64,000 nucleotides of DNA from Lineus longissimus (lineage: Eukaryota; Nemertea; Pilidiophora; Heteronemertea; Lineidae), in NCBI RefSeq assembly GCF_910592395.1, contig NC_088309.1, positions 4,900,501-4,964,500 on the forward strand, read 5' to 3'. The position numbers and the translations under genes are program-made. Positions 30,741 to 58,375 of this stretch are shown in pieces (the stretch's first letter is position 1; every line of letters begins with the position of its first letter). Below the pieces are notes generated by a model, which made no database searches, was not told the origin of the DNA, and saw nothing but the letters and a program-made list of their open reading frames with translations.

Positions 30741-33700
30741 ATGTCAGATTTCGACGCCAACCCATTTGCGGATCCGGAGGCTGCGAATCCGTTCTCGGTA
30801 AGTTTTGTGAGGGCAAAATATTGACACGTCAAAAGTCGAAAATGCACTCAGCATTGTACTGCACTGACTGCCACTGCAAGTGCACGACACACTCAGGATG
30901 TGGTACCCTGTATTTTCTTTGCTTTCCTGCCCCGGCCCCACCGTCCTGATTTATTATTGTGAGTACACTCCATCATTATTGATGGCTTTTTAATAATTTC
31001 ATTATTGTTATATGGTTTCCCCGGCCGAGGAAGCCTCGGAGCTCCGATCCCGAGGCTAGCTAGCTTTAACTGTGCTGACTGCTGAGGTGACGTAGTACAC
31101 ACGTCAACACATGAACAACAATAACGACCGGCGCCAACCAGGCTCCTAACCAACAAGAAGTCCGATGCCTGAAATGGAAATGCCAGGCCCAGCCCTACTG
31201 GCTACTGCCCCTAGTAGACTCCTAATGTACCGTTTAGTGGATGTCTTGTTGACTGACAGACTAACGGAGTGGACGATTTCAACAAAGACAAACCAGCGCC
31301 CAAGCAATCAAAACATGGATATTGTTATTTATGTGCACACCACAACTAAAGGCCTAAGCCAACTGCAAGACAAGGCCACTCGCCAATTGCAGTGACCCTT
31401 CGTTACTGGTCTGGTGTAACGCATGACTGGTCAGCGCCCAAACAAACTTTCGAAATTGTCCGTTTGGGTTCACCAATCGAAACCATGTTCACCGTCAAGG
31501 ACTAGGGTGTCTATCTTCATGGTCCGATGATTCATGTTCAGCATATCAGATTGTCACATCGGCATATTATAATATTTTTGTTTGTCTGGGCCCCTTGTCA
31601 ATAGAAGGGCAATGCTGATAGTTGAGTGAGCATGAGATGGGGTGGCTTCCACTGCTTACTTAATATTCATTAGTACAACATGGATTTTGGGGAAAATGTG
31701 TACTGTTCTTTAGCAGATTATGTATTCACTGTACATGTAAATTAACTGCAGTTGTCAGTAATTTACAACTTGCTGAATACATTGTTACCACCTGCTGTCT
31801 CAGCCAAGTCAATGCATCTCCTGCGGTGCATACATGTACATTGTAGGTAAAGGCATTGACTTGATTGACTGCCTGAACAACAATCAGAATCTGAAAATAT
31901 GAACTTACCTTTCGATGTTTTCTTGCGTATTTAACAAAGTTGGTAACCTAACTGCCATAGCATCCATGATTCTAATTTTTTTTTAGTTAACACATTTACA
32001 AATTCAGCACATCCAACTGTTCTTCTACTCCAGTGTGCAGCACAGCATAGTAGACTTTGAAACCAGATGTAGATATACATGTATTCAGCAAATGTCATCT
32101 GTTCTGGATATCATTTGTAATTGAAAGTTTGAACTAAAGATAAGGTTCTCAAATGAATTTGATATCTGTTGCATGTACAATGTCGTTCTTCCATCAGTCC
32201 AACTCTGTTTTTGTGATTCCATCTGTTGGTGTCAGGTAAATGATTAAACAATGTACAAAAAATTTGAAACAATTGACATGACTGGCATGACTGGCGCTCA
32301 ATAGTGGCATTAGCAGTGTGAGCAGCCTTGTCAAAAGCACTCGGCATTGGACAAGTCAGAAGCAGATGACACTTATCAGAATTGTCAACGTATCTTATCT
32401 CATCTTACAATACAATGTTATGGAAGGGATGCTGGGGTTGGAATTGGATGATTGAGTCCAGCTGACCTGAAATTTCTTTTGGAATACTATCTGATGAGAT
32501 TTGTGTTGAATATCTTGCTACCTCATTTCTTTCTCGAGAACAATTTAGAAGGGATAAAATAAGTGGGAATGTTCATGATTTAGTTTATTCTATGAGCAGT
32601 GAGCTTTTCTGTTTAAATCTATGATTTGTTTCGAGTGATTGAATTGGACATTTCCATTGAGATTGACGATTTTCTATTAGACTTTGTGATGGACATTTAG
32701 TTTTTAAAACTGGATTAGTATTTGGTGGCATTTCACAATGCCTCGTAAGAAACAGCTTTTGGAATATCAAAGTAGTAAGGTACATATGGGATTCCTCAAT
32801 TATGGTTGTTATTTGGGGACTGGTCTTATATCGTCGCTAATATGTACAAGACTTTATGATATTCAGTTTGGTTTTGCTTTTGTTGCAATACCTTGAGTTG
32901 TAAATACCTTCTGCATAACGTCACTATCTTTCATCAAAAATGACCAAAATGCATGTATGGTTATTGAATTGGTAGGGATCACATGTACATTGTATTGTAT
33001 ACTGGTTATAGTATTTTTAGTATTGACGTGAGTTAAAAGATCATTGAATGAATGAGTCATCAGTCACATGTGTGCAGGAAAGGTCTGTTCAGCACTTGTA
33101 ATTCTATATTTGAATAAAATTTAAAATGAATTCAATGATAAAGAAATGTCATGTGGGGAGCTGGTGTAGGGGGTTGGTGCTGCGCCTGTGTGTTGGTTGG
33201 TGGCACCAGTTCCCTTGACCCACTTCCCTTCATCTCAGTGGTGATGTCCATAATCATAAATCAATCAGTCAGTGAAATAGCTATGTGCTATGGATGACGA
33301 TTTCCTTGTAACTGACTCTGCACTGCAATCAAGATCAATATTAACATCTGTACTTATTGATTGATGTTTGTAATGCAGTTGACAACAAAAAGAACTTTTG
33401 ACTTGAGAGGCATCACATGGTGAGAGTAATCTTGACAGCAGTAGGATGGGAAAAGATGAAACTTTTCCATAGACAAGTCCTTGCTCAAAGCACTTTGTAT
33501 TCTCTTTGCAGGATCCAGCAGTTCAGCAAGCAGCACGTACAGGAGGCCAGGGACAGGGTGGTATTGATGAGTACAACCCGTTTGCCAGTGGGAATCAGAC
33601 GAAAACAGCTCAGCAGGTACATATTTGCCACTGTGAAATGTTTTGACCGCTTGATGAATCTAACTTGTCCTTATTCAATAATCATAACAACATGTATGTG

Positions 33701-36700
33701 TTGGGAGCAAAATAAATTTGTCACTATGCAGTGACATCTTTTGACAGCTTGATGAAACTAGCTTTATGCCTGCTGGTCCTGAGTCCTTATTCAATAATAT
33801 AAAAGTTAAAACATGAACTCCTCTCATTCATCAGTTTAGCAACATCTGTTTCAGTTTTGATCTCACTGTATAGTGGCTCCATCTATGAATGCTGATACAG
33901 ATGCATAACCATTTGCGCATAATGCATGGGATGAGTAATCGACTTTATCAATATTCATCTAAAACCAGCATTTGCTCGATATTGCATTGGGCTGCTGTGC
34001 ATGCTAGTCGACTACATACATAGTCACAGTCGTCATAGGCCCGCCATTGTGAGGCAGCAATGGAGAAGCCACAGGTTGTCTACGTTGATGTAGGTATTCT
34101 GTCGACACACAATTTCTGGTCTTTTATGGTGATGGGAACTTTCTGCTGCATCTGGTAAAACTTGTTTGTGTGTTTTGGCAGTCACATTCAACTGCAGGTC
34201 TTACACTTTTACAACCAACCACCAAAATGGGGTGGGGGATGGGATGGGGTGGGATAGGATGGTGGATGGGAGTGGGGTGTTCTTAGACTAGATTGTACAT
34301 GTACTTTGATTGAAATATAGTCATGTATGTCAAGTTGCGTTTGCATCAGTGGACATATCACTTTTAAGTTAAGTAGAAATATCTCCATGCCAGGCCTACC
34401 TTTGAAAGATTATGGTGCCTCCTTCCTCCAGCTCCGCTTCTGGTGTCTGGATGTCAAGGTTGTCATTCTTCCAGTTAGGTTCAAATTTGGAAGTGGTGAA
34501 GATTGTATTCCTTGATGGTCCTCCTGCTGCGGCACTAACCCTGTTCAATTTGGAATGCATCAAATGGAGAGTCATGTTCGGCCACTGGTGTGTCCATACT
34601 TCACTGATTTCGCGTGATTGTAAGGTCTAGGACTAATAGGCCCACATGTAGGAGACATCCCTCCTCACTTGTTTTCGATCTTTATGTCATTTAAAATTCT
34701 AACAATGCTGAGCTGAGCAAACAATTGATTTGTCCACCTGTATGTCCACTGATGCAAGTAGAAACTGACTAGATGCAGGATTGGTTTGTTGGGAAGAGAT
34801 CAATATTCTTAATCGGGATATTTACGAAGGCTCTACATGTCAGACTTGCAGTACTTGAGTGCAATTGTAGCGGGCATTGAGAACGAAGGGTTGGGATCTG
34901 ATCTGACCTTGTCCACGCTATGGTTTTCACTCACTATTCTGATCGTTTTGACTGACCAGTATACGGGGTAGTCATGTAATGTGTTATCTGTTCGGCTGAA
35001 TAGGCCCCACCATACCAAAAGATTTCGGAGAAGAAAAAATCTTCCCTTTAGATGACATCCTTGAAAAGGGAAAAATATGAAGTAGTCGGTCACTCAGTGG
35101 CCAGGAGCAAATTTGAAGACATCAGAAAGCTCATGTCTCTATTTCTGTGGTTCATTTTACATTGACATTGTGAATTATTGATTTGCTCTGGAGGCTTTAT
35201 ATCTCAATCCTATCACAGTGTGTATGCAGTTACATGTATGAGCATTGCACTGTTAAATACAAGTTCCCTGTGCGGCTGATGTGCAGAGATTACAATCTGG
35301 TCATTTTGTGAAGCCGATTTTCGCAATGCATATGAGAGAAAATCAGGTCCTCTGCTTACACTGGTTAGTGCTAGTAAAGGTGGAAAGGCATATTGGTTCA
35401 CGCTTCGAATTGCAACTATAAATATTGGTTCAGTCTGCAGGAAAAGTTCTGCTACCATCAGAAACCGACTTTGGATTTGAATGAGGAGGCTACACCAAGA
35501 AAGTACTAAGACCGTTTGTTTCTGTGCTCATTTCAGGCAAATCCACAGCAACCTCAGCAACCATGGAAACCTCCACCACCACAGCCTGCTGTCATGCAGC
35601 CGACAGAATCACCACCACCCTACACACCATCAGCCGCACAGAAAGCCGATACGGCCGAGCTGCAGCGGCGGCAAGAGGTAAGCAAACGAAACCAAGTAAA
35701 CAACGAATATCCTGGCGTAAAGAGGAATCCAGCCCCTGGTCACTGATGAGTTCCTGGATACTGGAATATTGTGGAGATTAGACATTCTTGACCTTTTCCT
35801 GACCTAAGCACTTGCTGAATTGTTGAAGCAAAACATTGAAGATTATAAATTAGAACCAGAGAATCCAGAAATTTATTCAGTTCAAAGTGGCCTAGATGAA
35901 ATCTTTAAAAAAACTGTTATTTGGTGATTGAGTTTAGACACCGTCTATGAACGGCATTGATCTTTGACCAGTTTGCTGTCTGAGGTCTAAAATTACCAAT
36001 CCTCAGTGTCAGTTCAATCTGAAATATTGATTCTATGTCTCTATCTCCTCGGCAGGAATTGGAGCGAAAAGCAGAAGAATTACAGAGGAAAGAACAACAG
36101 ATGAGAGATGCTCAGATCAATAGTACGTATCAGTTTTATAGTAAATAATGCCAAGAGATAGAGTTTCAACATGTAAACAAAATATTGTGTGGCGAGGCTG
36201 ATACATGATATAATCAGAATTTAAACAAAAGAGTGTAGAACTTCAAATTTTTAGCTTTCTTCCACCGAGTTTCTGGTGTTGAAATCTTAGGTGAATTACA
36301 GTAATGGAAAGCCCCCCCCCCCCCTTACACGAAGTATCGACTTGTTTGCCAACTGGTATCTACAAGACTTCATACTAAAGTGTTCTTATTTTCCTAATTT
36401 TTATAGGGGATCGTAAGTATCCTTATGGTATACACTAACTTAAAATAAAGTTAGCTCATCTTCTGCCATGATCTAATCTCATAACATCACTAATAAAGTA
36501 GTCCTCTATCCCTGTGAATTTTAGCAGATGGTGAGTATGATCCCTCTGTATTTGTGCACGAGTGGTGGTTTCTGGGACACCCATAGGTTACTCAGAACTG
36601 TTTATAATCATTGTCACGCCCCTCAAAAATGCTGACCAGCTGGGTCTTGCACACCTGAAAGATTTCTTCCAGTTGGTGTCTTGATTTTCCTGACTGATGG

Positions 36701-39700
36701 TCAAAGACTGACAATAGCATCGAAACTTTGGCCAGATTGCTAATCAGGATATTTGAAGCAATAATTTCATGAGCTTAATCTAGTCTGGCAATAGTGCACC
36801 GTCAGTCGAGTCTTGCATCCTCTGGTTTGGGATAGTAGTGAAAATCTTCTCACACTTGTACTATAATACAGTAATATAAAGGTACATCCATTATTTTGCC
36901 TGCACTAGCCTTTTGTACAGGAAAGGTGCGATTTCAATTTTAGAACTTTCACATGCCTGTACATTTTGCTTAAAGGAGTATTAAGTAAAGGTGGTGGAAC
37001 CAGGATATATGTATGATAGTTCATGAGTGGCCTGAAAGGAGCAGTGGTCTTGTTAATAGTGCACTTGTCCAATGAAAAGTGTTGCAAGTTATCATCATCG
37101 AGGCTAGATTTAGTGCTGTGCATGAAGTCGAAAATCTCAAGATGACAAAAAGAAGATTAGAAGATATGAATATGCCAATTTCGTCATTTCCTGCAAAGAA
37201 TAGAGCTGCATTTTCTAAGACGATAGTTTTGTCTTTACTTGAGTTTCCAATGTCATGCATAAGGGACGACTTTTACATGAATCCGATGTACAGTAAATAA
37301 TAATAACCTCACAAAATTATGTACAATTTTCATTTCTTGTCTTTTCAGCTCGTGCAAATAACTGGCCACCTCTGCCCGAAAAGTGTTGTGTAGGACCATG
37401 TTTTTATCAAGATTTTAATGTAGATATACCACTAGAATTCCAGAGAATTGTCAAGATATTATATTATTTATGGATGTGTAAGTATAGAACTAATAAATTT
37501 TGTGCATTTGACTGAATTTATATTTTCCGTTCTTGGCACGATGACGTTGAGAATCTTGCCTCAGTCTGTATCACAAAAGTTGCTTGCCACTACAGTTGGG
37601 CATCAGTTAGGGTAATAAGGCTTGTGACGAGGCAAAGGGAACAGGCACAAGATATCCAAGGACATGACTATCAAAATAAAATCGTAATTTAAAGATCAGT
37701 GTTTTGCTTTTGGAGGTGATGGCCGAAGAGGATTTCTCTATTCGAAGACAACCAAATTTCTTTTGTTACCAATGTAGTAACCTGAAGATTTCTTTTGTTT
37801 TCAGTTCACGTGTGTGTATTGTTCCTGAATATCCTTGGTGGATTAGCGTATTTCATAGCCGACAGTGGATCATCGAGTGGGGGCACGACGTTTGGCCTGG
37901 CCATCCTCTACTTCGTTCTCTTCACGCCCTGTTCATTTGTCTGTTGGTATCGACCAGTCTATAAAGCATTCAGGTAAGTGAAGTGATTTTAGCTTGTTTG
38001 ACATCCAGCGTATAGACTTCTGTGAAAAGGACTTGTTTTGGATCCTAGGTCAAGCAGCAACACACTACTGTCATCGGTCAGCTTGAAGGTGATTGCAAGG
38101 AAGAGTTCTCCAGTGGTTGGATACAAACATTCGTTCCTTCAAACTTCTACTGTAATGAATCTTTTACATATCTGATGCCCAGTTTGTTCTTCTCGTTTCA
38201 GGAGTGACAGCTCATTTAACTTCTTTCTATTTTTCTTCATATTCTTCTTCCAATTCTGTGTCCATCTAATACAATGTTTAGGAATCAATGGATGGGGAAC
38301 ATGGTAAGTACAAAACAATCGGTTTAGAAACGAAAAAAAAGCTATGACTAATTACTTTACAAAATAGCCTGAACAAATTTGATCAAGGGGGTTCATGCTG
38401 CTGGAGCCAAAACCTGTCACTGGGAAAGGAGGATAGAATAAACAGAAATTTCCATTCTGATTGACGAGAATAGAAGACCCCAATAAGACTGCAGAAAAAT
38501 AGAGCACATGTGGTTCAATTGAAACAGGTTGTTTGACTCATTGTGATGTGCTCTTTTTGATTGTTCAGAAAGTCCCTTGATATAATTGATAGACAACAAA
38601 AAGTCATTGGATGGCATTATTTTTGCCAATTCCCTCTCATTGACCTGATTGCCGTTTCAGTGGGTTCCTGAGCAGTTTCGCTATGCTCGCTAAAAAGACC
38701 GACGCGGGCTACGTAGTGGGAGCCATGCTGATACTTCTTGGAGTCGCATGGGCTCTTCTTGCAGCAGCCGATTTGTTCTGCCTCCTTATGGTAGACATTG
38801 TTATGAATTTTTTTCTCTCCAAAACTAAGGTGGAAAATGCACTGGTGTAGCTTTATATCAGTGGAAAGGAGCTTTGATGGTGTGCGGTTGGGAAGGTTTT
38901 AGAACAAAGTTACAAATTTGCACTGGGAGTCACATTCAGAACTAGTATTTCTGTTGTGAAACTTGACTCAAAAACTGCATTTTAAAAAAACAGTGAAACT
39001 GTTAGTGTCCCTGAATGATAGACAGATATGTTGAGACTGTACTGTTCTGTCCAGTTAATGAGGTGGGCTTGGTCAGCATCAAAGTCATGCTTGAGGTTAA
39101 GTTTTTATCAACTTCGTATGGTGTTGTGGCATGTCAGCTCGAATGAAGGTGAAGACCATGCTTCTATGGTGGATCCCTTGACTGGATCAGAGCAGTACCT
39201 TACTTTAATGTCCCCTCCCGTTAACCTTTAATGACTTACAATTTCAGCGGTTTCCTGAATGGCCTGATAATGCTTGGTCATAAGACATCACAGGGCTATG
39301 GCGTTGGTGCCATACTACTTTTAATTGGAGTCATGTTTGCTATGTTAGCCGCAATTGACATGATCTGCCTCATAAAGGTAGAGGATACTCAGAGAATTTT
39401 ATCAACAGATGAAAAATGCACCGATTTTGAGCAGTTCGGAGGAATTTCATTTGTATTTGGGACACTCATGCTAATTTATGTTTCTAGCCGCATGTTAACA
39501 GTTCCTCCGATTGCAATGATGGCAGTGTATGTTTCGTCTTGTATATGTGTTATTTTGCATATGCCCTGTAATGCTTTTGTCTTTTCTAATAGTCAGTACA
39601 AGTAGCCATGTCATATTTTTGTTGGGGAAAATCCCAATCAGTCCTATTTAATACACCTACAGTCTCTTTTCTGATAGATGGTCACAACACCAATTGAACA

Positions 39701-42700
39701 CCTGCATTTTACTACTACTAGTGATACATCATAGACATGCTTACCTCCACCGAGACAATTTAGATTTAGGGAATTAACACTGCACTGGTGTGTCTCTGAA
39801 CTTGACTATCTTGACTGGGAGGGGAGGGTGGCGCTAAAATGAAGACCAAAACCCAAGGTGCTTTGGCTGAAGGTTTTTTGTGTTGAAGGACTAAAGACTG
39901 AGGGACTGATCAGTCCAAATCCATTGGCTTTGTGACTCATTTTGACCTATTAGGAGATGGCTGTGTGTATCTGAATAGTTCTGATAGGGTCAGCGTTCAA
40001 GGCTGGTCCTTACACATTATTAGCTCTTTTTTCCCCAAGCATGTAAAATTTGCGTGTTTAACAAAAGTTTTACAGTGATAGCATGAATGAGTGATTATCT
40101 GTGTTTTCCCTAGGATATAGTTGTTTTTTTGTTCCATTTCATGTAGCAGGTCGTGTGCAATTGCAAGAACTTATAAAAGAATTTATGATCTGGGTGGAGA
40201 TGATATCTTTGTGTGAAACTCGCAAAAAAATCGATATAAAGTAAATTTTTTTCCAAGGTTGAAAACAGTAGATTTTTAGTCGACTGGTATCATCATAGAT
40301 ACTCAGGGGTTAAGCTAAAATAGACAATCCCATGTGCAGTTCAGAAGAAAAACGGAAAAATTGGGCTGTTTACAACATGAAGTGGTGAAATTATAGCTAC
40401 AGTGTACAATTGCACATTCCGGCCGGAGCTGATAATGTGCAAGGATCTAGTGTGAACCCTTCCTCCCCTCCTCCCAAGTCCATGATTTTCTTTGTTGTTG
40501 GTCTAACTTGCTTTTCCTTGGTTATTTGTTATGTAGTGGATGGATTAATGGCCTAGCTCTTGTCGGGCCCAACCCTGGAGCAGGGGCCATCCTACTAATA
40601 ATAGGGCTATTCTACTCGCTGCTGGCTGCGGCTGATATGATACTTCTCATCAAGGTAGGGAGCATGTCGACACTTGCGCTTGACTGATTTGTCTATTCCC
40701 ACCTTACAATAACAGCTTGCATTTCACACAAGTTTGCTTTCACACTATGTAAAGGTTGCTTGTTTCTATAGATTTCGAGCAGATGCTGTCATCACAGCAA
40801 AAGACCCCAATTTAGATGGCAAATCTATGCCATTGACTGACAAAGGATACTCTTTACAGGTATCATATTCAATTATACTAGTTCTGTGAGAATAACTTAA
40901 TTTGTATTGAATTAGAAGATACATGTAATAGAGGTGATTTGAATTTCAAAATGACTTCGATCAAGGAATGCCGAAAGATATTTTGACAAGTGCCATCTCA
41001 TAAAACACCTAAAAAAGACAAGTCTAAGGTGAGCATTTTGTGAAAGCAATTATGTAGGTTCAGGTTTGAGTTGGCTTGCTGCTCTAACCAGTTAACACCT
41101 CATTCCTTTCTTGTTTCCACACTGCAGGAGTTCCGTTTTCTGTCATTAGTTCAGTGACTGTCTTCATGATAGGAATCTGTCATTTGGACCTTTATAGTCA
41201 GTTTTTTTTTGTTGTAAAGAAATCCTATTTCACATGAGCAGTGTGTATGCACTGTGCACTGGGGGCAACACCCAGTTTGAGCGACACATCCTACCTTTTA
41301 TGGGGTTATTTATTGATCTTCCATGATTGAATAGAATTATTACTTACTATTGCACCAGAGTCACCCTCATCTTTCTTTTGGTGAACCCCTCCCTCCCTCC
41401 CTGGCCCCGAGCACTGCTTTAACCTTTGCCAAGTCATTCTGTCCCAAACCATGTGATGTGCATGAAGGACACAAAGATTGCATTAACCTTCCTCTCACAG
41501 TCTGTGGAATTTGTACCCAGTGGGATGGTAAGCTAGAGACCAGTCACAAAGAGTATCACTCTGGGACACTAGTTACCTAGGCTGTGAGCGGAACCATGAA
41601 CTGTGCCAAGGGGTATTCAAGAGGTAGGTAGTTTATTCTGATGACTCCTGCCTTCTGGTTTGGAATCACGTCCTACACAGCAACCGACCTCCAGGGGGTT
41701 CATGCACACGCAGGTCATGTACTAAACTAAGCAAGCAATTGTCCTGATTTTGCATGTAAATTTGGAGTGAAGCACAGTTCTTGTGTGCTCTGTTAATTGC
41801 AGAGATGCATCCAATTGTCTATGCAAACAGTTAGTTGACTTGGTGTTGCTTTTTGTTGCATTCATGTACAAAAAGCTTGCCTACTCGGTACAGTTATTTC
41901 TTCTCAGTTGCTTCTTTCCTGATTGGCCTTCTATATAAACCTGTGCATGGGTCAGTGCAACAATCAGTCTTTAGATGCAAGAAAGGTAGGTAGTCAAAGG
42001 TTCATGCTCTTCAGATTGTAGTTAGGCTTTTCATGTAAAAATTCCATCTGTAGTGGTATTTGTTCTTGTAAAAAAATAACTTAATTTCCATTTTAAATGT
42101 CTCTTTGAAACTTTATGTCATGCTGTGCTGAAAAAATGACGTAAGAAATATTTTTCATTAGCTACATGTACATTGATTGACATGAAAGGCCATGCACATC
42201 ACTCTGGAGCTGGGCTAGTTGACAAAAACTTTGAAAATATCATCGCAAGGTTGAGGTTTCTTGTGTGCGGCTTTAGCTTCAAACAACTAATAGATGAAGA
42301 CTAGACTTCAATTGAGCATCAAAATATGGATGATTCTGGGATACATAATGTTGGCCAGCCTTTGTTTCATTTGTTAAAAAGAATACTTTAGTGTGTTTCA
42401 TCAGAAGCCTTTCGTTATTGTAAGGGTTGCTGTATCAGAAAGTCTAGCCTTCACCTGTAGCATCTTATGTTACATCCTAATGCTTCCTTTTCAGTGCAAT
42501 AAAGTCAGTATAGAGAATGGTCAATTTGTCTTACTAAATCCTATAATATCTCAAAACTATTAGTGCCAGTTATCGAACATCTAAACTGCTTGTGTTGTAG
42601 TGATTAAGTGCTAATGATCAAACGAGTTAATCAAGAGTCTTTGAATTAATGCTGAAAGATAATCTTTGAGACGAAGTTGGGTTTGCATGTCAGTATTGCT

Positions 42701-43071
42701 AAAGATAGCCTATCTGTTCCTTGATGACCGTTCTGTGTCGGAAGACTAGTTTACAGTAAACAAGTATGTTGTGTGTCGATTTTAGATGTTTTAAGCTCTC
42801 ACTTTTGTAATAACCCTAAGAATTAGTTGTGGTGATCTATGTCGATTTCTTGCCATCACAGTGTTGGGCGGCCCTCAACTCTCTTCTTTTTTTTCATCTA
42901 TAGGTGCATCGCATATACCGCAGCACGGGCGCCAGCTTCGCAAAGGCACAACAAGAATTTGCGCAAGGCGTCATGAAAAACGAAGGAGTTCAGAACGCTG
43001 CTGGAAACATGGCTGCCGGAGCAGCGAGAAATGCATTCACAGGAACTGGATCAGGCGGTAATCGTTACTAA
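30741..43071 (+). CDS. SCAMP: Secretory carrier-associated membrane protein (SCAMP), complete, with alternative TM4 exons
   Basis: Four-TM protein of recycling and secretory vesicles, involved in exocytosis and endocytosis. Coding exons: 30741-30797, 33512-33616, 35537-35677, 36056-36122, 37349-37477, 37805-37973, 38202-38303, then one of 38661-38790, 39248-39377 or 40537-40654, then 42904-43071. The frame closes to 355 aa with the first or second alternative, 351 aa with the third. Three NPF motifs (residues 7-9, 16-18, 41-43) are EH-domain ligands. A Pro-rich stretch and a short coiled coil ([15 protein letters not shown]) follow. TM1 begins near [19 protein letters not shown] at 213-223 is the SCAMP E-peptide, known from vertebrate members to inhibit a late step of exocytosis. 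TM3 is Phe-rich, TM4 is in the alternative exon, and the tail has the conserved [16 protein letters not shown]. It is head-to-head with AP-3 beta. Confidence 0.95.
30798..33511 (+). other. SCAMP intron 1
   Basis: A 2.7-kb phase-0 intron. Its first few hundred bases are GC-richer and CpG-containing, continuing the promoter region. The rest is AT-rich with no recognised element. Confidence 0.45.
33617..35536 (+). other. SCAMP intron 2, with a G-run cluster at 34229-34280
   Basis: A 1.9-kb phase-0 intron. The sense strand at 34229-34253 has four closely spaced G-runs (GGGG T GGGGG AT GGG AT GGGG), followed by more GGG-containing repeats to about 34280. It could form a G-quadruplex in the pre-mRNA. 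Nothing else stands out. Confidence 0.5.
36407..36412 (+). other. Candidate 6-nt microexon 1 in SCAMP
   Basis: A pyrimidine-rich tract ends in ttttatag, followed by GGGATC and a strong donor gtaagtat. It lies in the phase-1 intron between exons 36056-36122 and 37349-37477. Insertion would keep frame and change the junction codon plus add two residues (reading R-D-P in place of T). The constitutive protein already matches human SCAMP1 length here, so inclusion would be optional. Confidence 0.45.
36525..36530 (+). other. Candidate 6-nt microexon 2 in SCAMP
   Basis: In the same intron, ttttag is followed by CAGATG and then donor gtgagtat; a 3-nt version (ATG) is possible if the cag is used as acceptor. 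The 6-nt form would read T-D-A across the junction and keeps frame. Its similarity in size and phase to the preceding candidate suggests a cassette pair. Confidence 0.4.
38661..38790 (+). CDS. SCAMP: SCAMP alternative exon 8a (TM4 version 1)
   Basis: 130 nt, acceptor gtttcag, enters in phase 2 (TG|T completes Cys) and leaves in phase 0 at donor gtagac. It encodes [20 protein letters not shown] and then a hydrophobic TM segment ending DLFCLLM. It is homologous in position and sequence to the two exons that follow. The donor has G at +4 instead of the usual A. Confidence 0.88.
39248..39377 (+). CDS. SCAMP: SCAMP alternative exon 8b (TM4 version 2)
   Basis: Also 130 nt and the same phases, acceptor atttcag, donor gtagag. 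It encodes [20 protein letters not shown] then a hydrophobic segment ending DMICLIK. It aligns without gaps to 8a over 44 residues, with roughly half identical. If spliced after 8a the frame becomes CGG TTT CCT and meets a TAA within 12 codons. Confidence 0.9.
40537..40654 (+). CDS. SCAMP: SCAMP alternative exon 8c (TM4 version 3)
   Basis: 118 nt, same entry and exit phases, acceptor atgtag, donor gtaggg. It encodes [20 protein letters not shown] then a hydrophobic segment ending DMILLIK. It is four codons shorter than 8a and 8b in the loop before the membrane segment, matching the length of human SCAMP1 in this region, so it may be the ancestral form. If spliced after 8a or 8b it reads TGG ATG GAT TAA and stops. 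Confidence 0.9.
40655..42903 (+). other. SCAMP last intron
   Basis: A 2.2-kb phase-0 intron between the alternative exon cluster and the terminal coding exon. I searched it for a fourth TM4-like exon (Gly-Ala-hydrophobic-Leu-Ala-Ala-Asp pattern) and found none. Confidence 0.5.
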
Positions 43072-46000
43072 GCGGCCAGAATCGGACGATGATTGAACAA
43101 TTCTTGTAAATAAAGGGCGATATGTACACCATGATGAATGGTGTGGCAATGAAATTCTCTGAATGTGAAGTTCTGGCCAAACTTTGTGAAATTGACAGCT
43201 GGCTGTTGTTGGGTCGTACTGCTCCTGCTGTGAAGGGCAGGAACCCATCTACCCTGCCATCCCTACAGTGCTAGACAAGGACCCTGCCATCTCTGCAGTG
43301 CTAGACAGGGAGTGTGAAAAGCATGAAATATTCTACTCTTCCATGTAGAATATGATGAAGTCATCCTGAACTTGTTGCTACTCAATGACCATCCGTGGTA
43401 CGAGGACCGATTTCATTTCCATACATTATATGTCGGAGCTTGAATAGTCAAGTCAAACTGACACATGACGAAGATGACTCGTCAAACTGTGCTTTGTCTG
43501 AGCAGGTTGCGATCTTTCGATCAGGTTTGCTGTCATATTCACTGAGTTTACCTGTCAGTGTTGAAGGCTAAGTCATGGAGGTACATCGAGATAGAATGAG
43601 TGCCTTGGCTGGAAAACTGTTAACCTGGCTCTGCGTTGGAACATACTGTGTCGACAGGATTAGCCGTATGAGGGAGTGGGTCAAAAAGCCTATTTTAGAT
43701 ATGATAGGCCACTGTGTAACAGACAGGCTTAATATCTTCAACAAATATTTTCAGGCTAAGGTGAGAAATGCTTTGGCTCCCGGTTTAGGTATGTTCATGG
43801 GGTAGAATAAAACTTGGCACTGTCTTCTAAAGGCCTTCCAGTTTTTGGTCGACTTGAAGTATTTCAAAACAGAAGAGGCAAATTATTTGTGTGATGAGTA
43901 ACCTACTTAGACTCTTATGTGAACACTGATTAATGTCACATCGAATTGGATTCAATAATTGGAGGACATGTACATAATTCAGCCCTTTGGCTGCTAGTTG
44001 CTTTGAGGACGATGTTGTTGCAAAAAGGTGTTTGGAGTGGCCTTGGTTCTAGCGCATTCTAGAAATACACAGTGGTGTGTCGAACTTGGCATGAACAACT
44101 ATACATCTGCATGTAGAAATAGTATTGAACTTGAGTTGTACATGTGGCCATTTGTAAACATTGTAAAAAAGCATTTCATGTTTCACCTATTTGAACTTGC
44201 ACCTTGATGCAAGGTGCTTAAAATTTTAGTCTAATGACATTACTATGAGATTGGTGACCTCAGTGACCTCTAATGCATCACCTTTCCCAGCAACCTTATA
44301 TCAGTGTCATTAGAGTATTTCACCTCGTCTTTACTATACTACCCGTTTGTCTCCTTACTGTTGTTTCATTGAAGTGATTTCGGATGAGTTGTGATTACTG
44401 TCAAAGATTCTATGTAGTGAGTGTGGTGTGGTCAACGTATAAACGAACTGGTGTGACAGTATTTAGACATGTACACTTGTAAAAAAAAGATGGCTGCAGT
44501 ATACATGTATATTGCTTTGTAATAAGTCTCATCATTTTACTGGCTGCATCGTGAGTGTTCACTGTCAAATCCTTTGAGATAAGATTTCTCCATTTTTTGT
44601 GTGGAGTCGTCAGAATACAGGTCACGCATGTATATACGTTGCTCAGAAATTCGAAAAATTGATTTGTACAATTTTGGCTGATAAATTTTTCTCCCTTCAT
44701 AGAAAAGTGATACACATTTATTATTCTAATATAGTCTTGATTCCTTAAGCGTTGACCATTCTAGATCTAAATGCAGCCTTTAAATGGATGACTCTTATCT
44801 GTTTTGCTATAGAAACTGTTGAGTCTTATAACTTTACAGTTGTCAGCCTAGGATGTATTTAAAGAATGGAATGCTGAATAGAAGCAGCTTTTCTCCTATT
44901 TACATGTAGTATGTATGATAGAATTTCAAATTCCTGTTTTGTTGATTGTTCATTTGGCGGCTGCCAGAGGCAGGGCTGTTATGTTGTGTCACCTTGTTTC
45001 TTGGTTATATGGTTGTGGTCATATCATATAAATCACTGTTATGACATCACTTAACTGGGGCCGTAGCTTTTTCAGGTCAAGTATACAGGGTGTTTCGGAA
45101 ACATCTTCTCACTTTGATACTGTTAAACTTCTTAATCCACCAAATGCAATATGGCTGTCAGACCACACAATGTTGTGATGTGTGAGACTTCTTATGTATG
45201 TGTCGCCTGATAGAAGATTGCTCTAGTTCTTCTCTAAGCTTCACCACTTCTGAATATGTCCTCATTATCTATGCTATGATTTTTAAAAGTAAATATATAA
45301 CCCAGTCATTTCAAATTATTCTGTTTTCCTCACTCTTGTTCATGGCAGAATTTATGAATGACCTGGAATAATTGTACCCCTGCATTGTACAAACTTCCCT
45401 TGTTAATAAATGGTTCCTGCCTAGTGTTCTCACACTTGATGTTCTGGAGTTGAGCTGAAGATTTTTCACTTTGAAAAAGTCTTTATTCATTGTAAATACT
45501 AATAAATTAGTCTGAATGTGGCACCAATGTGTGATATTGTAAATTATAGTTATCAGTTATAACTTGGCACTTATGTAAGCATACATGTACAAAAAACCAT
45601 GATTTCTTTTATGTTTGGAATTTCAGTAATTGGTACAAGATAGGATCGTAGTTCTATGTCCTTGTTTGAAGTAGTTCATTGAAGCTCTAATTCAAGAAGC
45701 TTTCAAAATTTGCCTGGAGTTGTATTTTGCCAGCTGAATTTTTGTGGCTCCTGGTTTCATAAGATCACTGATGTTATTATTTCAATTTAGTTATTGACAG
45801 TTGATAGGCTGATTGAAGATGTGATGCTGCAAGATGTCTGAGAATATTTCGCCCACTTAACAGGCAAGATGGAGCAGATTTAATACTGTATGACGTGTAG
45901 TGTCATTATAACTTTATAAGAAGCATTCCATCTTGAATAGGTGTGACCGTGAATTGATACTTCAATTGGTTATCAATTCATGGCTGTGCCTTTGCCACAG

Positions 46001-49192: not shown

Positions 49193-51694
49193 ATGGCGCC
49201 GATTGTATGGAACGATTTCTTGCCAATGACATCAGAGATGGATTGGTGCGAACCGAATTATGCTGTCACGAGTTATATAGCGGAATTCTATAATACGGTA
49301 GGTAATCCTCAGAGCTCGAGGACGGGTTGGGACTTGTCGAATTCTACGATCACCTCGCAAACATCTCTGCAGTCTCCCGCTTTAATTGCTCCTCATACAG
49401 GATGCCTCAAAATAGTTGTAACCAAGTAGGCTATGGGTAGAAGACTAGCTAAGTGGAAGTTCCATGCTATGTATGATAGTTGTGCCTGCGGGTGTGCTTC
49501 TCCCTATAATATGAATATGTCTGTAGTCACTGTAACTTAAAAATTGCTTCACCGTCAATACAGATAGGCCTACTGTCAGAATATGTTGTTTTTGTCAGTG
49601 AGAGAACCGTCCTGCCCGGTGTATGCAATTACATGCATAAACATGTAGGCCTAATTATATGATTTGTAGGCCTAAAATTGATTTCTATATTACCTAATAC
49701 GTTCCCATCCCATTTACATCCTGTATGCACTATATGTACAGCAATTAATGACCAACTGCAAATGTTGACCTAATTCGTGGCGTATGTGTAACTGTCATTA
49801 ATGATGATAACAACCTAACAACGGGGGAATCCCGAGATTCGCGTCACAACGGCCCTCAGTGTTGGTTGGCTCTGTCCTACCGGCTCTGGTAGACACTGAG
49901 AAAGGTGTCACCCTCGATGTTCAAATAATACATGTGGATATAAAACACCACAGCAGGCCTAACCGAGGGCATAGAGGGCTTGATATCTTTGGTACAGTGA
50001 GGCAACACCACCATTTTAACACGTTGTCTTATCTGGATGCTATTTTGTTCCTTGAACCTTAGAGTAGCCAGAATTTAGTCTGGTTATATACGCTAAGCTT
50101 GAACCACTGTCGGCCTATCCGTTGGGAGTCTCAGCTTTTGATATTCTCTCCAAAGTCTGAGCTATTGAGGAACAGAAAATGAGGTAATCACCACCAAGAC
50201 TGCCATAAAAATCAGCCTAATTGTCTGAAAGATCCAGGATATCAGGCAATTGCCCTCCAATTTCCTCATAAGACGTTTTTTCCGTATTTGTTTGTCGTAT
50301 GAGTTAATTACGTTTTCGACGTTCCTTCTTTTTCAGATAAGTAATCTACCGCTAGTGATCCTACCAATTATTCTAATCATCCTCAACAAGGAGTACTCCA
50401 GGCGAGTATCGTGTGGGCCAAACGTCATCTGGGGACTAGTCATCACCGTCGGACTCGGTTCGACCTACTTCCACGGTACGCTGAGCCGGATGGGACAGCT
50501 TCTCGATGAGGTGACCATCAGTTGGGTCGTGCATGGCACATTCGCTCTCCTCATCCCAAGACACATGCTGCCAATTAGCTTAAAGGGAGACAGGTAAGGC
50601 GCTGTCATTGAGTTCAATTGCTGTTGATTCTTCTTTCCTTTTTGAAAGTGTAGCCTTGTCAATATTCTATTTAGTATAAATGTAGTATACAAGCGTACTC
50701 GTTGTGGCCCGACCGAGACATACGCATCTCCCGATGAACCCATCGACAAATTGTCGTGCTTGTCATAACTACTCATATAGCCCATTTCGTCATCCTGATC
50801 GTTCCTCACAGTACCTGGTGCCAGGCCGGTCCACTGCATCCGGAGTTTAGTCACTCATAACCTAATAACTTCTATATTTCGTCTTCCCGTTTTCAGAGCT
50901 ACTGTGAGAAATTTGATGCTTCTCCTGGCTGCGATATGGTCTATCCTTGCCATCATCATTCCTGCCGTCACACCTGTTATCCTACAGTTCCTTGGCATAC
51001 CATGTTTCTATGTCCACTTTCGCACGATGAGAAGGTAGTGTAAAAGTTGTATAATATGTCGCCAAAACTTTTAGGAAAGGACTTCCAAGTATAGTAAGAG
51101 GAGAACTAATCTCATGAACGTCATCCTCAACTCATGTTCCATTCTGGAAAATGTAGTACCACATTCATACCAGAGCCAGCTTGGAAACTGTACACACATA
51201 CACCTATTGGTCCTTTTACGGCGGCATTTTGTAGTCGTACATTATGTATGCGTACACTGATTTGTATAGACTCTATTGTAACGTCGCTTTTCAACTTGAT
51301 AGCGTTACATTCCCGGTTACATTGATGTCTGATAGTTTCTGGTAATTGACAAGTTTTTGACTATGTTTAATTTTGTTCCAGATGTGATTGTCCTGAGGTC
51401 GTCAAGCTCGGCAACAGAGCTGGAGTCATCTTCCTTCTCGCCACAGCCTGTTGGCTTGCTGATCAAATGTTCTGTCCATTCTGGATCAGCATCAACTTTC
51501 CGTATCTTCACAGTTTCTTCCATATTTTAGCTGCCTTCGCTGCCTGCTCTTCAATCACCAGCTTTGTTTACATCGAAGCAATAGAAAAAGTGCCTGAACA
51601 AAATCCGCATCTCAAGTATTGGCCAAGTAACGAATGGAAAGTCCTTTCAGTGCCTTATATCAGGTTTGGAGAGGAGACCAAAAAATCCGAATGA
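49193..51694 (+). CDS. Alkaline ceramidase (ACER2-like), paralogue A
   Basis: Multi-pass ER/Golgi enzyme that hydrolyses ceramide to sphingosine and fatty acid. Coding exons: 49193-49297, 50337-50593, 50897-51034, 51382-51694 (105+257+138+313 nt, 270 aa). Family hallmarks: SEMDWCEPNY, then IAEFYNTISN across the first junction. YFHGTLSRMGQLLDE holds His81 and Asp92, and FPYLHSFFHIL holds His210 and His214; these are the four residues expected for the Zn-dependent CREST-type active site. The C-terminal EKVPEQNPHLKYWPSNEW is also typical. Exon 1 is short and was set by phase and the conserved DWCE motif. About seven hydrophobic segments are visible, as in human ACER2. The tandem paralogue lies 5 kb downstream. 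Confidence 0.93.
49298..50336 (+). other. Ceramidase A intron 1
   Basis: A 1.0-kb phase-0 intron (donor gtaggt, acceptor tttttcag). No extra exon or repeat seen apart from several taggcct words near 49567-49675. Confidence 0.5.
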
Positions 51695-52520
51695 TCAGTT
51701 TCCGATACTCATCACGACGCCTGTGGCTTTATACCCTATATGCTTTATCATGAATTCCATAAAATGTCTTTAGTGGCCAAGATGGTGTTGGACTGAACAC
51801 CGTGTATCCGGTGCCTATCGGGAGGTTTTCATGGACCAAAAGGGAAGAGCCATAAGACAATCACAAAACCGATAGGAGCCTCCTACAAAGGAGCCATTAA
51901 TGATGATGATAATAGCAGGCCAACAGGTACTTGTCGAGAAGTACCCCATGGGTACCCATATGGCCGCCGACACTTGCCCATATGTTAGTTATATGGGGCC
52001 AATAAATTTTACTATGTCTTCTGATAACGACAAGGGACAATATATGTGGTGATGTTGGAAAGACCAAGAACCAGGGGATGTTTACACGAACTGGTCCTTG
52101 GTGAGTCGGTCTCCGGTTGTCATGTATAACAACTTCCTTGTGCAGAAAAGCATCTGGCAATATCTGGCCGCAAATTATGAAGCAAGATACAATGTGTAAG
52201 GTCTCCTTCCTGGTTGTGACTGTCACAGAGCTAATAGTGCCTCTGTGTGCTCCTTGTCCACAGAAAGACCATGACACTTTGGTTGTGTAATCGGTTGTGA
52301 AGTTGTCACAACCTCCCTTCAGCCGCTTCCCTGACAGAACTCTTACAACTGAAGACAACACAGAAAAGCAAAGGCAAGAATAATCTTTTACCATTTTCTT
52401 CTATATCGATCTTCTGAACAGCACATTGTTGCAAAAATTACAGGTTCATTTCAAAATATAAAGTTGAATCAAAACAGAGTAACTCGTAAATCAAAGTACA
52501 CTTTTCAATTGAGACAACTC
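51695..52520. other. 3' UTR of ceramidase A and spacer
   Basis: Non-coding as far as I can tell. Around 51815-51885 the words ctatcgggaggttttcatgg and ccgataggagcctcc form a loose inverted repeat. A 165-codon minus-strand open frame here resembles no known family and starts and ends without splice or promoter context. Confidence 0.4.
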
Positions 52521-54556
52521 CAATACATGTCCTGGTCCCAGACTGTGACTGAGACAGAATGGCCATGTAGTGCGCCAAAGCTCCGAGCTAGGCAACACGG
52601 AGCGAGTTAGTCCAAGGTTGTGACAGAAGTGTGTCTTTGACCAAGCATGTCCTGGCCCAGACTGTGACTGAGATAGAATGTTCAGGTAGTGCACCAAGGG
52701 TCCGAGCTAGGCATCACGGAGCGAGTTAGTCCAAGGTTGTGACAGAAGTGTGTCTTTGACCAAGCATGTCCTGGCCCAGACTGTGACTGAGATAGAATGT
52801 TCAGGTAGTGCGCCAAAGGTCAGAGCTAGGCAACACGGAGCGAGTTAGTCCAAGATTGTGACAGAAGTGTGTCTTTGTCCAAGACATGTCCTGGTCCCAG
52901 ATTGTGACTGAGACAGAATAGCCATGTAGTGCACCAAAGGTCAGAGCTAGGCAACACGGAGCGAGTTAGTCCAAGGTTGTGACAGAAGTGTGTCTTTGAC
53001 CAAGCATGTCCTGGCCCAGACTGTGACTGAGATAGAATGTTCAGGTAGTGCACCAAGGGTCCGAGCTAGGCATCACGGAGCGAGTTAGTCCAAGGTTGTG
53101 ACAGAAGTGTGTCTTTGACCAAGCATGTCCTGGCCCAGACTGTGACTGAGATAGAATGTTCAGGTAGTGCGCCAAAGGTCCGAGCTAGGCATCACAGAGC
53201 GAGTTAGTCCGAGGTTGTGACAGTAGTGTGTCGTTGTCCAAGACATGCCCTGGTCCCAGACTGTGACTGAGACAGAATGGCCATTTCGTGCACCAAAGGT
53301 CAGAGCTAGGCATTCCAGAGCTCGAGCGAGTTAGTCCAAGGTTGTGACAGAAGTGTGTCTTTGACCGATACCTGTCCTGGCCCAGACTGTGACTGAGATA
53401 GAATGGTCAGGTAGTGCACCAAGGGTCCAAGCTAGGCATCATGGAGCGAGTTAGTCCAAGGTTGTGACAGAAGTGTGTCTTTGTCCAATACATGTCCTGG
53501 TCCAGACTGTGACTAAGACAGAATGGTCAGGTACATGTAGTGCACCAAGGGTCCGAGCTAGGCATCATGGAGCGAGTTAGTCCAAGGTTGTGACAGAAGT
53601 GTGTCTTTGACCGATACATGTCCTGGCCCAGCATGTGACTGAGATAGAATGGTCCGGTAATGCACCAAGGGTCCGAGCTAGGCATCACGGAGCGAGTTAG
53701 TCCAAGGTTGTGACAGAAGTGTGTCTTTGTCCAACACATGTCCTGGTCCCAGACTGTGACTGAGACAGAATGGTCAGGTAGTGCACCAAAGGTCCGAGCC
53801 AGGCATCACGGAGCGAGTTAGTCCAAGGTTGTGACAGAAGTGTGTCTTTGTCCAAGACATGTCCTGGTCCCAGATTGTGACTGAGACAGAATAGCCATGT
53901 AGTGCACTGAAGGTCCGAGCTGGGCATCACGGAACGAGTTAGTCCAAGGTTATGACAGAAGTGTGTCTTTGACCGATACATGTCCTGGCCCAGCATGTGA
54001 CTGAGATAGAATGGTCCGGTAATGCACCAAGGGTCCGAGCTAGGCATCATGGAGCGAGTTAGTCCAAGGTTGTGACAGAAGTGTGTCTTTGTCCAATACA
54101 TGTCCTGGTCCCAGACTGTGACTGAGACAGAATGGTCCGGTAGTGCACCAAAGGTCCGAGCTAGGCCTCACGGAGCGAGTTAGTCCAAGGTTGTGACAGA
54201 AGTGTGTCTTTGTCCAATATATGTCCTGGTCCCAGACTGTGACTCAGACAGAATGGCCATGTAGTGCACCAAAGGTCAGAGCTAGGCCTCACGGGGCGAG
54301 TTAGTCCAAGGTTGTGACAGAAGTGTGTCTTTGACCGATACATGTCTTGGCCCAGACTGTGACTGTGAGAGAATGGTCAGGTAGTGCACCAAGGGTCCGA
54401 GCTAGGCATCACGGGGAAAGTTAGTCCAAGGTTGTGACAGAAATGTGTCTTTGTCTGATACACACCCTGGACCAATTCTGTGACTGAGACAGAATGGTCA
54501 TTTCACAGCAGGGCATGGGTGAGTTTGTCCAAGGTTGAGACAGAAGTGTGTCTTTC
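52521..54556. repeat. Satellite array, 17 monomers of about 120 bp
   Basis: Each monomer carries tgtcctggtcccagactgtg, gactgagacagaatgg, agtgcaccaaaggtccgagc, gagcgagttagtccaaggtt and gtgacagaagtgtgtctttg. The last word recurs at 52620, 52739, 52858, 52979, 53098, 53217, 53344, 53464, 53590, 53710, 53831, 53952, 54072, 54193, 54314, 54434 and, diverged, 54537. Spacing is 119-127 bp, with a short last unit of 103. First and last copies are the most diverged, as expected for arrays homogenised by unequal exchange. The many minus-strand open frames reading HFCHNLGLTRSV are a by-product, since 120 is divisible by three. Confidence 0.95.
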
Positions 54557-56735: not shown

Positions 56736-58375
56736 ATGATGGTGGGGCAGGAACGAGATGCAAGTGATGCTTTGCATGACTTCCGTTCTGGCACATCGGA
56801 TGTTGATTGGTGTGAACATAACTATGAAGTAACCAAATTAGTAGCCGAGTTCTACAACACTGTAAGTATTGAAACAACTGTAGAACACCATAAGTATTGA
56901 TATTCTACGATCTTCTATAGATTGGGAACATAGCGAGAAAGTGATTAGTTAGACTGTACTTTCCAATGTTATCGATGGATGTATTGTTTTTAGGTCAAGG
57001 CTAAAAAACTTGAAAAAATATTAATTTGTAGAAGTCACCTAATTAATAAATATGTCTATGTACAGACCGTTGCCCTGGAAAATTATTAAAAAGATTTGGA
57101 TTTAAAACATCGCACTCATCTTGACTGATTGCTCCTTCTTGTTGAATCGTTGTCATCAAATGCTCGCTATATTAGGTATCAATGTTTCTCTTGTTTTCAG
57201 ATAAGCAATGCACTGTTCTTCATCATGCCACCTCTTCTGATCTACCTGAACTGGCAGTATGCCAAACGAGTGTCCATCTACACTAACCTGATCTGGGCCC
57301 TTCTTGTCATTGTGGGAATAGGATCTGTCTATTTTCATGCAACTCTCAGTTTGGTTGGCCAACTTCTCGATGAAATTTCGATTGTTTGGGTGATCTTCGG
57401 AGCTATAGCTCTTTTATTTCCAAGGGAACACATGCCGACAATATTTCGAGGAAGCAGGTGTGTATTCAGAATAACAAGAAGCTCTTAACCAGTATACATA
57501 TGGGCTCATTCCCAACTTTAGCCGACTGGCAGATAGTTCAGCTGAAGACCTTTGTAACAATAACAATCTTTAGTTCAACGTAGGATTTTGCCTTTTCGAA
57601 AAATGAGTGCAAGTACTTGGGTTTCTATACTGATTTAACACACTTGTTAAGTTGTTCTTTTCTTCCAGGGATAACTTTCGGAAGGTGATCCTGTGTACAG
57701 CATTGGTTGCTTCCTTCCTGGCGTTTTTGATGCCAGTCCTCAATGCATTCATACTCTTCTCCCTCGGCTTTCCCTGTGCTTACATCTTGGTTAAAGAGTT
57801 AAAAAGGTAGGTCAAAGTTAGCTAAGGTGATTTATCTTCATTTCTGGATTAACCACAGTAACTCATCATAAAGCATAAAGGCAGTTAAACTTGAAGGGTG
57901 CAAGTCTTGTCATACCCAAGTAAATTAATGCAACAAACTATGGTTATTTTGAGAGATTTCTGTTCCATCACCTTTGCTTTTTGGAGCTGAATGGTTGAAA
58001 TTTTCACCACATTGAGATCACAGCGACACCGTTGATATATTTTCCAGGTGCAAGTGTCCTCGAGTGTACTACCTAGGATGCCGCTGCTGTTTGACGTGGG
58101 TTGTAGCCGTCATCTGCTGGCTTAGTGACAAATTTTTCTGCCGTATGTGGTCGTCAATTGCATTTCCTTATCTCCATTGTTTCTGGCATATCTTTATCGC
58201 TATCAGTGGATGTACGTCCATTGTGACTCTCATCTACTTCAATGCTGTTGCGGAGGTGCCAGAACAGATGCCGGTCCTCAAATACTGGCCAAGTAACAAG
58301 TGGGATAACTTTGGAATACCGTACATCGCCTTTAAAGCTCTGGCCCCGTGCAGGTCTACATGCAAGTACCTGTGA
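56736..58375 (+). CDS. Alkaline ceramidase (ACER2-like), paralogue B
   Basis: Same enzyme class as the upstream paralogue. Coding exons: 56736-56861, 57201-57457, 57669-57806, 58048-58375 (126+257+138+328 nt, 282 aa). Exons 2 and 3 have the same length and phase as in paralogue [12 protein letters not shown] and [18 protein letters not shown], then [12 protein letters not shown] with SLVGQLLDE (His88, Asp99) and [11 protein letters not shown] (His217, His221), carry the metal-binding set. [15 protein letters not shown] ends the conserved part. It is closer in wording to human ACER2 than paralogue A is, and has a 12-residue longer protein with a Cys-containing tail ([10 protein letters not shown]). 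Two adjacent ATGs (56736, 56739) could both serve as start; I used the first. Confidence 0.94.

Follow-up and report, generated by a model that had tools for sequence, protein, structure and literature searches.

SCAMPs are proteins of vesicles that occur widely, and what they do at the molecular level is still unclear. Several described systems stand close to the gene reported here, a SCAMP gene of the ribbon worm Lineus longissimus (phylum Nemertea): tandem mutually exclusive exons, the duplicated exon 5 of SNAP25, which is a cytosolic SNARE, and the separate SCAMP genes of vertebrates. Two surveys deal with mutually exclusive exons. One (PMC9741552) finds ion-channel and other transmembrane proteins enriched among such exons, and the other (PMC5740500) names transmembrane-helix exons, whose joint use or skipping would flip the membrane side of the downstream part. 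We analysed a window of 64,000 nucleotides (contig NC_088309.1, positions 4,900,501 to 4,964,500 of the forward strand, assembly GCF_910592395.1), in which the Lineus SCAMP gene contains three tandem exons, named 9a, 9b and 9c, each encoding a version of the fourth transmembrane helix (TM4) and of the loop that joins it to the third (TM3-TM4 loop). Like the tandem exons in the portions covered of both surveys, the Lineus copies adjoin, are homologous and have like length, phase and frame, and their joint inclusion shifts the frame. Unlike those exons, they number three, belong to a vesicle tetraspan and include a type unseen in 70 vertebrate sequences. SNAP25 exon 5, in the part of its description covered (PMC2581893), is likewise duplicated and used in a mutually exclusive way, and its protein acts in regulated secretion, but it has two variants, is a vertebrate case and encodes part of a SNARE, not a membrane helix. 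The vertebrate SCAMP family, which comprises five genes according to the portion covered of a study of fly SCAMP (PMC4235465), resembles the Lineus cluster in that several versions of TM4 are supplied within the same protein family. In vertebrates, however, the diversity comes from separate genes, all of one TM4 type in our sample, whereas in Lineus it would come from exon choice in one gene.

A literature search, judged mostly from titles and the openings of abstracts, found no description of a TM4 exon choice in SCAMP. The portions covered of the fly study (PMC4235465) mention the transcripts RA, RC and RD and no TM4 choice; in those of PMC7470232, SCAMP2 stands in a gene table, separate from the passages on exons; and the word 'SCAMP' does not occur in the main text, as covered, of either survey (PMC5740500, PMC9741552). 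The mutually exclusive exon arrangement is known, and its occurrence at SCAMP TM4, three-way in Lineus, is most likely a new case. Isoforms with swapped TM4 are already in the public NCBI annotation and, as far as we found, have not been discussed.

We regard it as very probable that 9a, 9b and 9c form a mutually exclusive cluster of three exons in the single SCAMP gene detected in Lineus. All three are on the plus strand and encode the TM3-TM4 loop and TM4: 9a (38661..38790; 43 amino acids, F type) has the donor ATGgtagac, 9b (39248..39377; 43 amino acids, F type) the donor AAGgtagag, and 9c (40537..40654; 39 amino acids, W type) the donor AAGgtaggg. The type of 9c is that of the vertebrate sequences. 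The coordinates, the lengths of 130, 130 and 118 bases (each with remainder 1 on division by three), the AG/GT borders and the translations agree with a sequence-only reading of this DNA in which the three exons were proposed, and each exon is one open frame, in the same phase, with GT-AG sites. That reading had also held that only single-exon choices give a full protein, and this is borne out: the products with 9a, 9b and 9c have 355, 355 and 351 amino acids and end at the natural TAA, and none of the five other combinations (none, ab, ac, bc and abc) reaches it. As it had stated, joining 9a to 9b reads 11 residues and then TAA, and joining 9a or 9b to 9c reads WMD and a stop. The three are thus homologous neighbouring exons of the same phase with lengths equal modulo three, and the frame is lost by joint inclusion or skipping; both are marks of a mutually exclusive cluster. 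This frame logic supports tandem alternative TM4 exons used one at a time for a full protein, and 9a is found in an NCBI isoform: the model SCAMP1-like isoform X2 (P0001 in the protein collection) is identical to the product predicted with 9a.

The homology of the three exons, also proposed from the sequence at first, is clear at the protein level, with identities of 55% between 9a and 9b, 51% between 9b and 9c (with a four-residue gap) and 33% between 9a and 9c. Their BLOSUM62 scores are 119 for a-b (shuffle maximum 38), 65 for a-c (maximum 30) and 101 for b-c (maximum 38); the likeness is not due to chance, because each score exceeds every one of the 2000 shuffles made for that pair. No fourth copy of exon 9 was found by tblastn over the window, nor a second copy of exons 5-8 or 10, for which the only matches had E-values above 0.05. 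The differences between the copies fall mainly at third codon positions, with counts at positions 1, 2 and 3 of 16, 10 and 25 for a-b and, with gaps placed by hand, of 13, 7 and 29 for b-c and 17, 9 and 31 for a-c. This excess at third positions argues that 9a, 9b and 9c have all been kept for their protein. We infer from these exons that 9b and 9c are probably used in Lineus as well as 9a, and that the choice among the three would be strictly exclusive.

The predicted products are SCAMPs. Their scores against the PF04144 profile are 207.9, 207.8 and 214.3 bits for 9a, 9b and 9c, far above the curated cut-off of 27, and the predicted product has N-terminal asparagine-proline-phenylalanine (NPF) repeats and the loop CWYRPxYKAFR, both of which we take to be motifs of the SCAMP family. 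C213, W214, R216, Y219, A221 and F222 are invariant in 95 aligned sequences. An exon-by-exon PF04144 search of the whole assembly (391 Mb in 30 contigs) gave three matches, all in the window and in exons 6-8, and SCAMP is one detected locus in Lineus.

Hydropathy confirmed that the piece swapped in each alternative exon is the TM3-TM4 loop and TM4. Four membrane helices are seen in each of the three products, with two overlapping peaks at TM4 in the 9c product. In an AlphaFold2 model of the 9a product, made with 95 aligned sequences, the helices span residues 152-185, 190-224, 227-249 and 271-307; the mean predicted local distance difference test score (pLDDT) is 78, and it is 97-98 by blocks over residues 251-300. 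In this model exon 9a (residues 258-300) forms a short helix at 259-266, then a turn, and supplies most of TM4. A sequence search for a relative of solved structure found none at an E-value of 0.001. The loop, which presumably is luminal in the SCAMP family, with cytosolic tails, is four residues longer in 9a and 9b than in 9c and carries a net charge of +1 in 9a and 9b and 0 in 9c. Across 202 distinct TM4 cores, variation is lowest at eight positions (15, 11, 1, 22, 24, 8, 7 and 4), and six of these (1, 4, 8, 11, 15 and 22) recur at a spacing of 3-4 on one helix face (moment p 0.043). All three Lineus variants retain G1, L4, G8, an aromatic residue at 11, A15 and L22. We infer that TM4 probably keeps its packing positions, with variation in the loop and elsewhere in the helix.

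The sequence-only reading had suggested a search of related species for a like cluster. At the protein level the outcome was positive, with a TM4 swap between proteins of the same species in at least seven species. Three protein searches, with the best 120 of 635, 780 and 791 matches taken, gave 261 different proteins together. The species are the decapods Macrobrachium rosenbergii, Procambarus clarkii and Cherax quadricarinatus, the molluscs Physella acuta and Saccostrea echinata, the sea cucumber Apostichopus japonicus and the amphioxus Branchiostoma floridae; pairs joining different species or metagenome sequences are outside this count. In all seven, annotated pairs differ in TM4 and match exactly for 40 residues on each flank of the TM3-TM4 unit, and the pairs of Macrobrachium, B. 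floridae, Saccostrea and Apostichopus are identical over 259-322 residues upstream and 50-60 downstream. All seven pairs diverge right after CG or VG and become alike again at VH or at most three residues before it, and exon 9 of Lineus begins and ends at these points. On these protein sequences, the Lineus cluster is one case of a pattern present in Nemertea, Mollusca, Arthropoda, Echinodermata and Chordata (amphioxus), and the TM4 swap is not peculiar to Lineus. The collection was clustered at 90% identity and only the best 120 matches of each search were taken, so that isoforms of other species may be hidden; nothing should therefore be read into the absence of a second TM4 type in insects or annelids.

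With a TM4 profile, four of the 261 proteins proved to have more than one copy: three in Mya arenaria (I, W, W), two in Branchiostoma belcheri (L, W) and in Nucella lapillus (I, W), and a copy of F type followed by a partial copy in Nymphon striatum. These look like predictor artefacts, gene models in which neighbouring alternative exons have been fused. In the three that have both types (Mya, Nucella and B. belcheri) the W copy lies 3' of the non-W copy, as in Lineus (F, F, W). The vertebrate sequences picked by name among the matches listed are all of the W ("GW") type (70 of 70). In the decapods and the sea cucumber, both of the swapped TM4s are of non-W types.

Further segments differ in some of these proteins. 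In B. floridae, the TM1-TM2 segment of P0070 also differs from that of P0038 and P0072 between identical flanks, and amphioxus SCAMP may therefore have a second alternative exon. In Mytilus edulis, P0131 and P0133 differ at the end of TM3 and in the following loop, and P0156 of Pinctada imbricata has two TM3-like stretches in tandem; from these models, an alternative TM3 exon in bivalve SCAMP is possible.

Two histories could account for the wide distribution of the swap, and a tree of TM4 built from 66 segments over only 44 columns is too small to settle its age. We give roughly even chances to independent duplications of the TM4 exon in nemerteans, molluscs, decapods, echinoderms and amphioxus. 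Approximately unbiased (AU) tests, consistent with repeated invention, did not reject a clade of Lineus 9a, 9b and 9c (p 0.388), an amphioxus pair (p 0.189) or a mollusc-only clade (p 0.126). A starred branch of the tree (95/92) unites W types of sea urchin and sea star with non-W types of echinoderms and amphioxus, the starred branches together force at least two changes between W and non-W, and the W types form one group in 0% of 200 bootstrap trees. The swap of two non-W types in decapods and sea cucumber also favours repeated invention. Against it, the W/non-W label needs five changes on the tree compared with a shuffle mean of 21 (the label itself being among the tree columns), and the same boundary and the order of non-W before W recur in Lineus, Mya, Nucella and B. 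belcheri. On the tree, Lineus 9c is nearest to the W types of Owenia and molluscs, and 9a and 9b share an unstarred group (91/90) with F types of arthropods and a single leech sequence. The other history, which we hold tentatively and at rather less than an even chance, is that the switch dates to the protostome/deuterostome ancestor, with non-W followed by W, grew to three exons in nemerteans and in some clams, and disappeared from vertebrates, which multiplied whole SCAMP genes instead.

In the splicing that we propose, exon 8 would be spliced to 9a, 9b or 9c and the chosen exon to exon 10; the resulting SCAMPs would share their tails and TM1-TM3 and differ in the TM3-TM4 loop and TM4. Trans-acting factors would most likely choose among exons whose acceptors are modest and below average: of 17 positions, 11, 10 and 11 are pyrimidines before 9a, 9b and 9c, compared with 12-15 before seven constant exons (2, 4-8 and 10). 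Wrong joins would be cleared by frameshift and decay, and the TM4 variants might tune contacts with partners or lipids, probably by tissue. No clear motif excess was found in 38304-42903: TGCATG, which we take to be the RBFOX site, occurs four times (2.3 ± 1.6 expected), GCATG ten times (5.3 ± 2.5 expected) and runs of six T 15 times (7.6 ± 3.9 expected), and the other splicing-factor motifs tried are within about 1.5 standard deviations. All four TGCATG, at 41459, 41751, 41944 and 42684, lie in the intron after 9c (40655-42903).

The introns between the copies, of 457 bases (9a-9b) and 1159 bases (9b-9c), are too long for exclusion by intron size. This disfavours a too-short intron as the cause and leaves room for exclusivity enforced by competing RNA pairings of the kind described for Dscam exon 6, between selectors and a docking site. 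We consider such pairings unlikely here, since the repeats in the cluster region are short and imperfect, and for every one of the six pairs of introns compared, a duplex stronger than that of the introns themselves arose in at least one of six mononucleotide shuffles.

The cluster could also mainly control the amount of SCAMP, with joint inclusion or skipping as a regulated unproductive outcome. The stop produced by double inclusion lies 94 (ab) or 106 (ac and bc) bases before the last junction, where the mammalian 50-base rule predicts decay. After skipping, however, the stop falls within the last exon and by the same rule would escape decay, and amount control leaves unexplained both the protein-level constraint on each copy and the complete annotated products with different TM4s in the seven other species; we judge it quite improbable. 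Slighter still is the chance that splicing uses just one or two of the copies, with 9b or some other as a duplicate now included rarely or never: the 9a product is the only one found as a deposited Lineus model and a 43-codon stretch is open by chance about once in eight (by arithmetic), but all three exons are open with canonical borders, they differ mainly at third positions (b-c in particular), as an unused exon would not, and the type of 9c is the sole type in the 70 vertebrate sequences.

Several observations count against a three-member mutually exclusive cluster of this kind in a single gene. Among the deposited Lineus models found, only the 9a product is seen; the Lineus cluster in the collection comprises four sequences, of which X2 is the readable member. 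The donors of 9a, 9b and 9c match 5, 6 and 7 of nine consensus positions, overlapping the range of 6-9 in the constant exons. A weak second SCAMP locus could have escaped the genome search, which works exon by exon and did not report the copies of exon 9. Docking/selector pairing did not rise above shuffles in the six intron comparisons, and no structural mechanism was found there. For TM4 itself, helix-face clustering of identity among the three Lineus variants alone has p 0.07, and among the 202 cores two conserved positions, 7 and 24, lie off the shared face. A mutually exclusive cluster of 9a, 9b and 9c nevertheless accounts best for the frame logic, the constraint and the swap in other animals.

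The constant exons are also on the plus strand, and together with 9a they give the product identical to X2. They comprise exon 1 (30741..30797), with the start codon and the first NPF motifs; exon 2 (33512..33616); the proline-rich exon 4 (35537..35677); exon 5 (36056..36122), with a charged helix stretch; exon 6 (37349..37477), from NNWPPLP to the start of TM1; exon 7 (37805..37973), with TM1-TM2 and a loop, by hydropathy; exon 8 (38202..38303), with TM3 and the donor common to 9a, 9b and 9c (ATGgtaagt, 8 of 9 consensus positions); and the common last coding exon 10 (42904..43071), with the TAA at 43069-43071. The number 3 is reserved for an optional candidate. Read as 32 bases, this breaks the frame; an in-frame version of 36 bases (34054-34089) with a weak acceptor is possible and was left out because it is missing from X2. 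Two candidate microexons of six bases, GGGATC (36407-36412) and CAGATG (36525-36530), lie between exons 5 and 6; both have good splice sites, keep the frame and are missing from X2. A 30-base unit occurs twice at 43251-43311, 180 bases past the stop and perhaps in the 3' untranslated region.

Elsewhere in the window, an open frame of 434 amino acids (6243-7547) contains a major facilitator superfamily transporter domain (PF07690). Ceramidase-family (PF05875) matches are found in two open stretches, 50229-50597 and 57129-57488, about 7 kb apart on the same strand, which perhaps represent tandem duplicate genes. Between them lies a tandem array (52519-54500) of 16 copies of a 121-base unit, also with a period of 362 bases. 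There was no Rfam match in the window.

From one SCAMP gene, an animal can probably obtain several forms of a protein central to secretion. The swap is limited to the TM3-TM4 loop and TM4, with the cytosolic parts constant, which points to a segment worth varying, and the Lineus exons would provide natural matched variants for asking what TM4 binds. The same swap is seen in isoforms of four further phyla whose genomes are already annotated, so that its use could be tested from existing RNA-seq.

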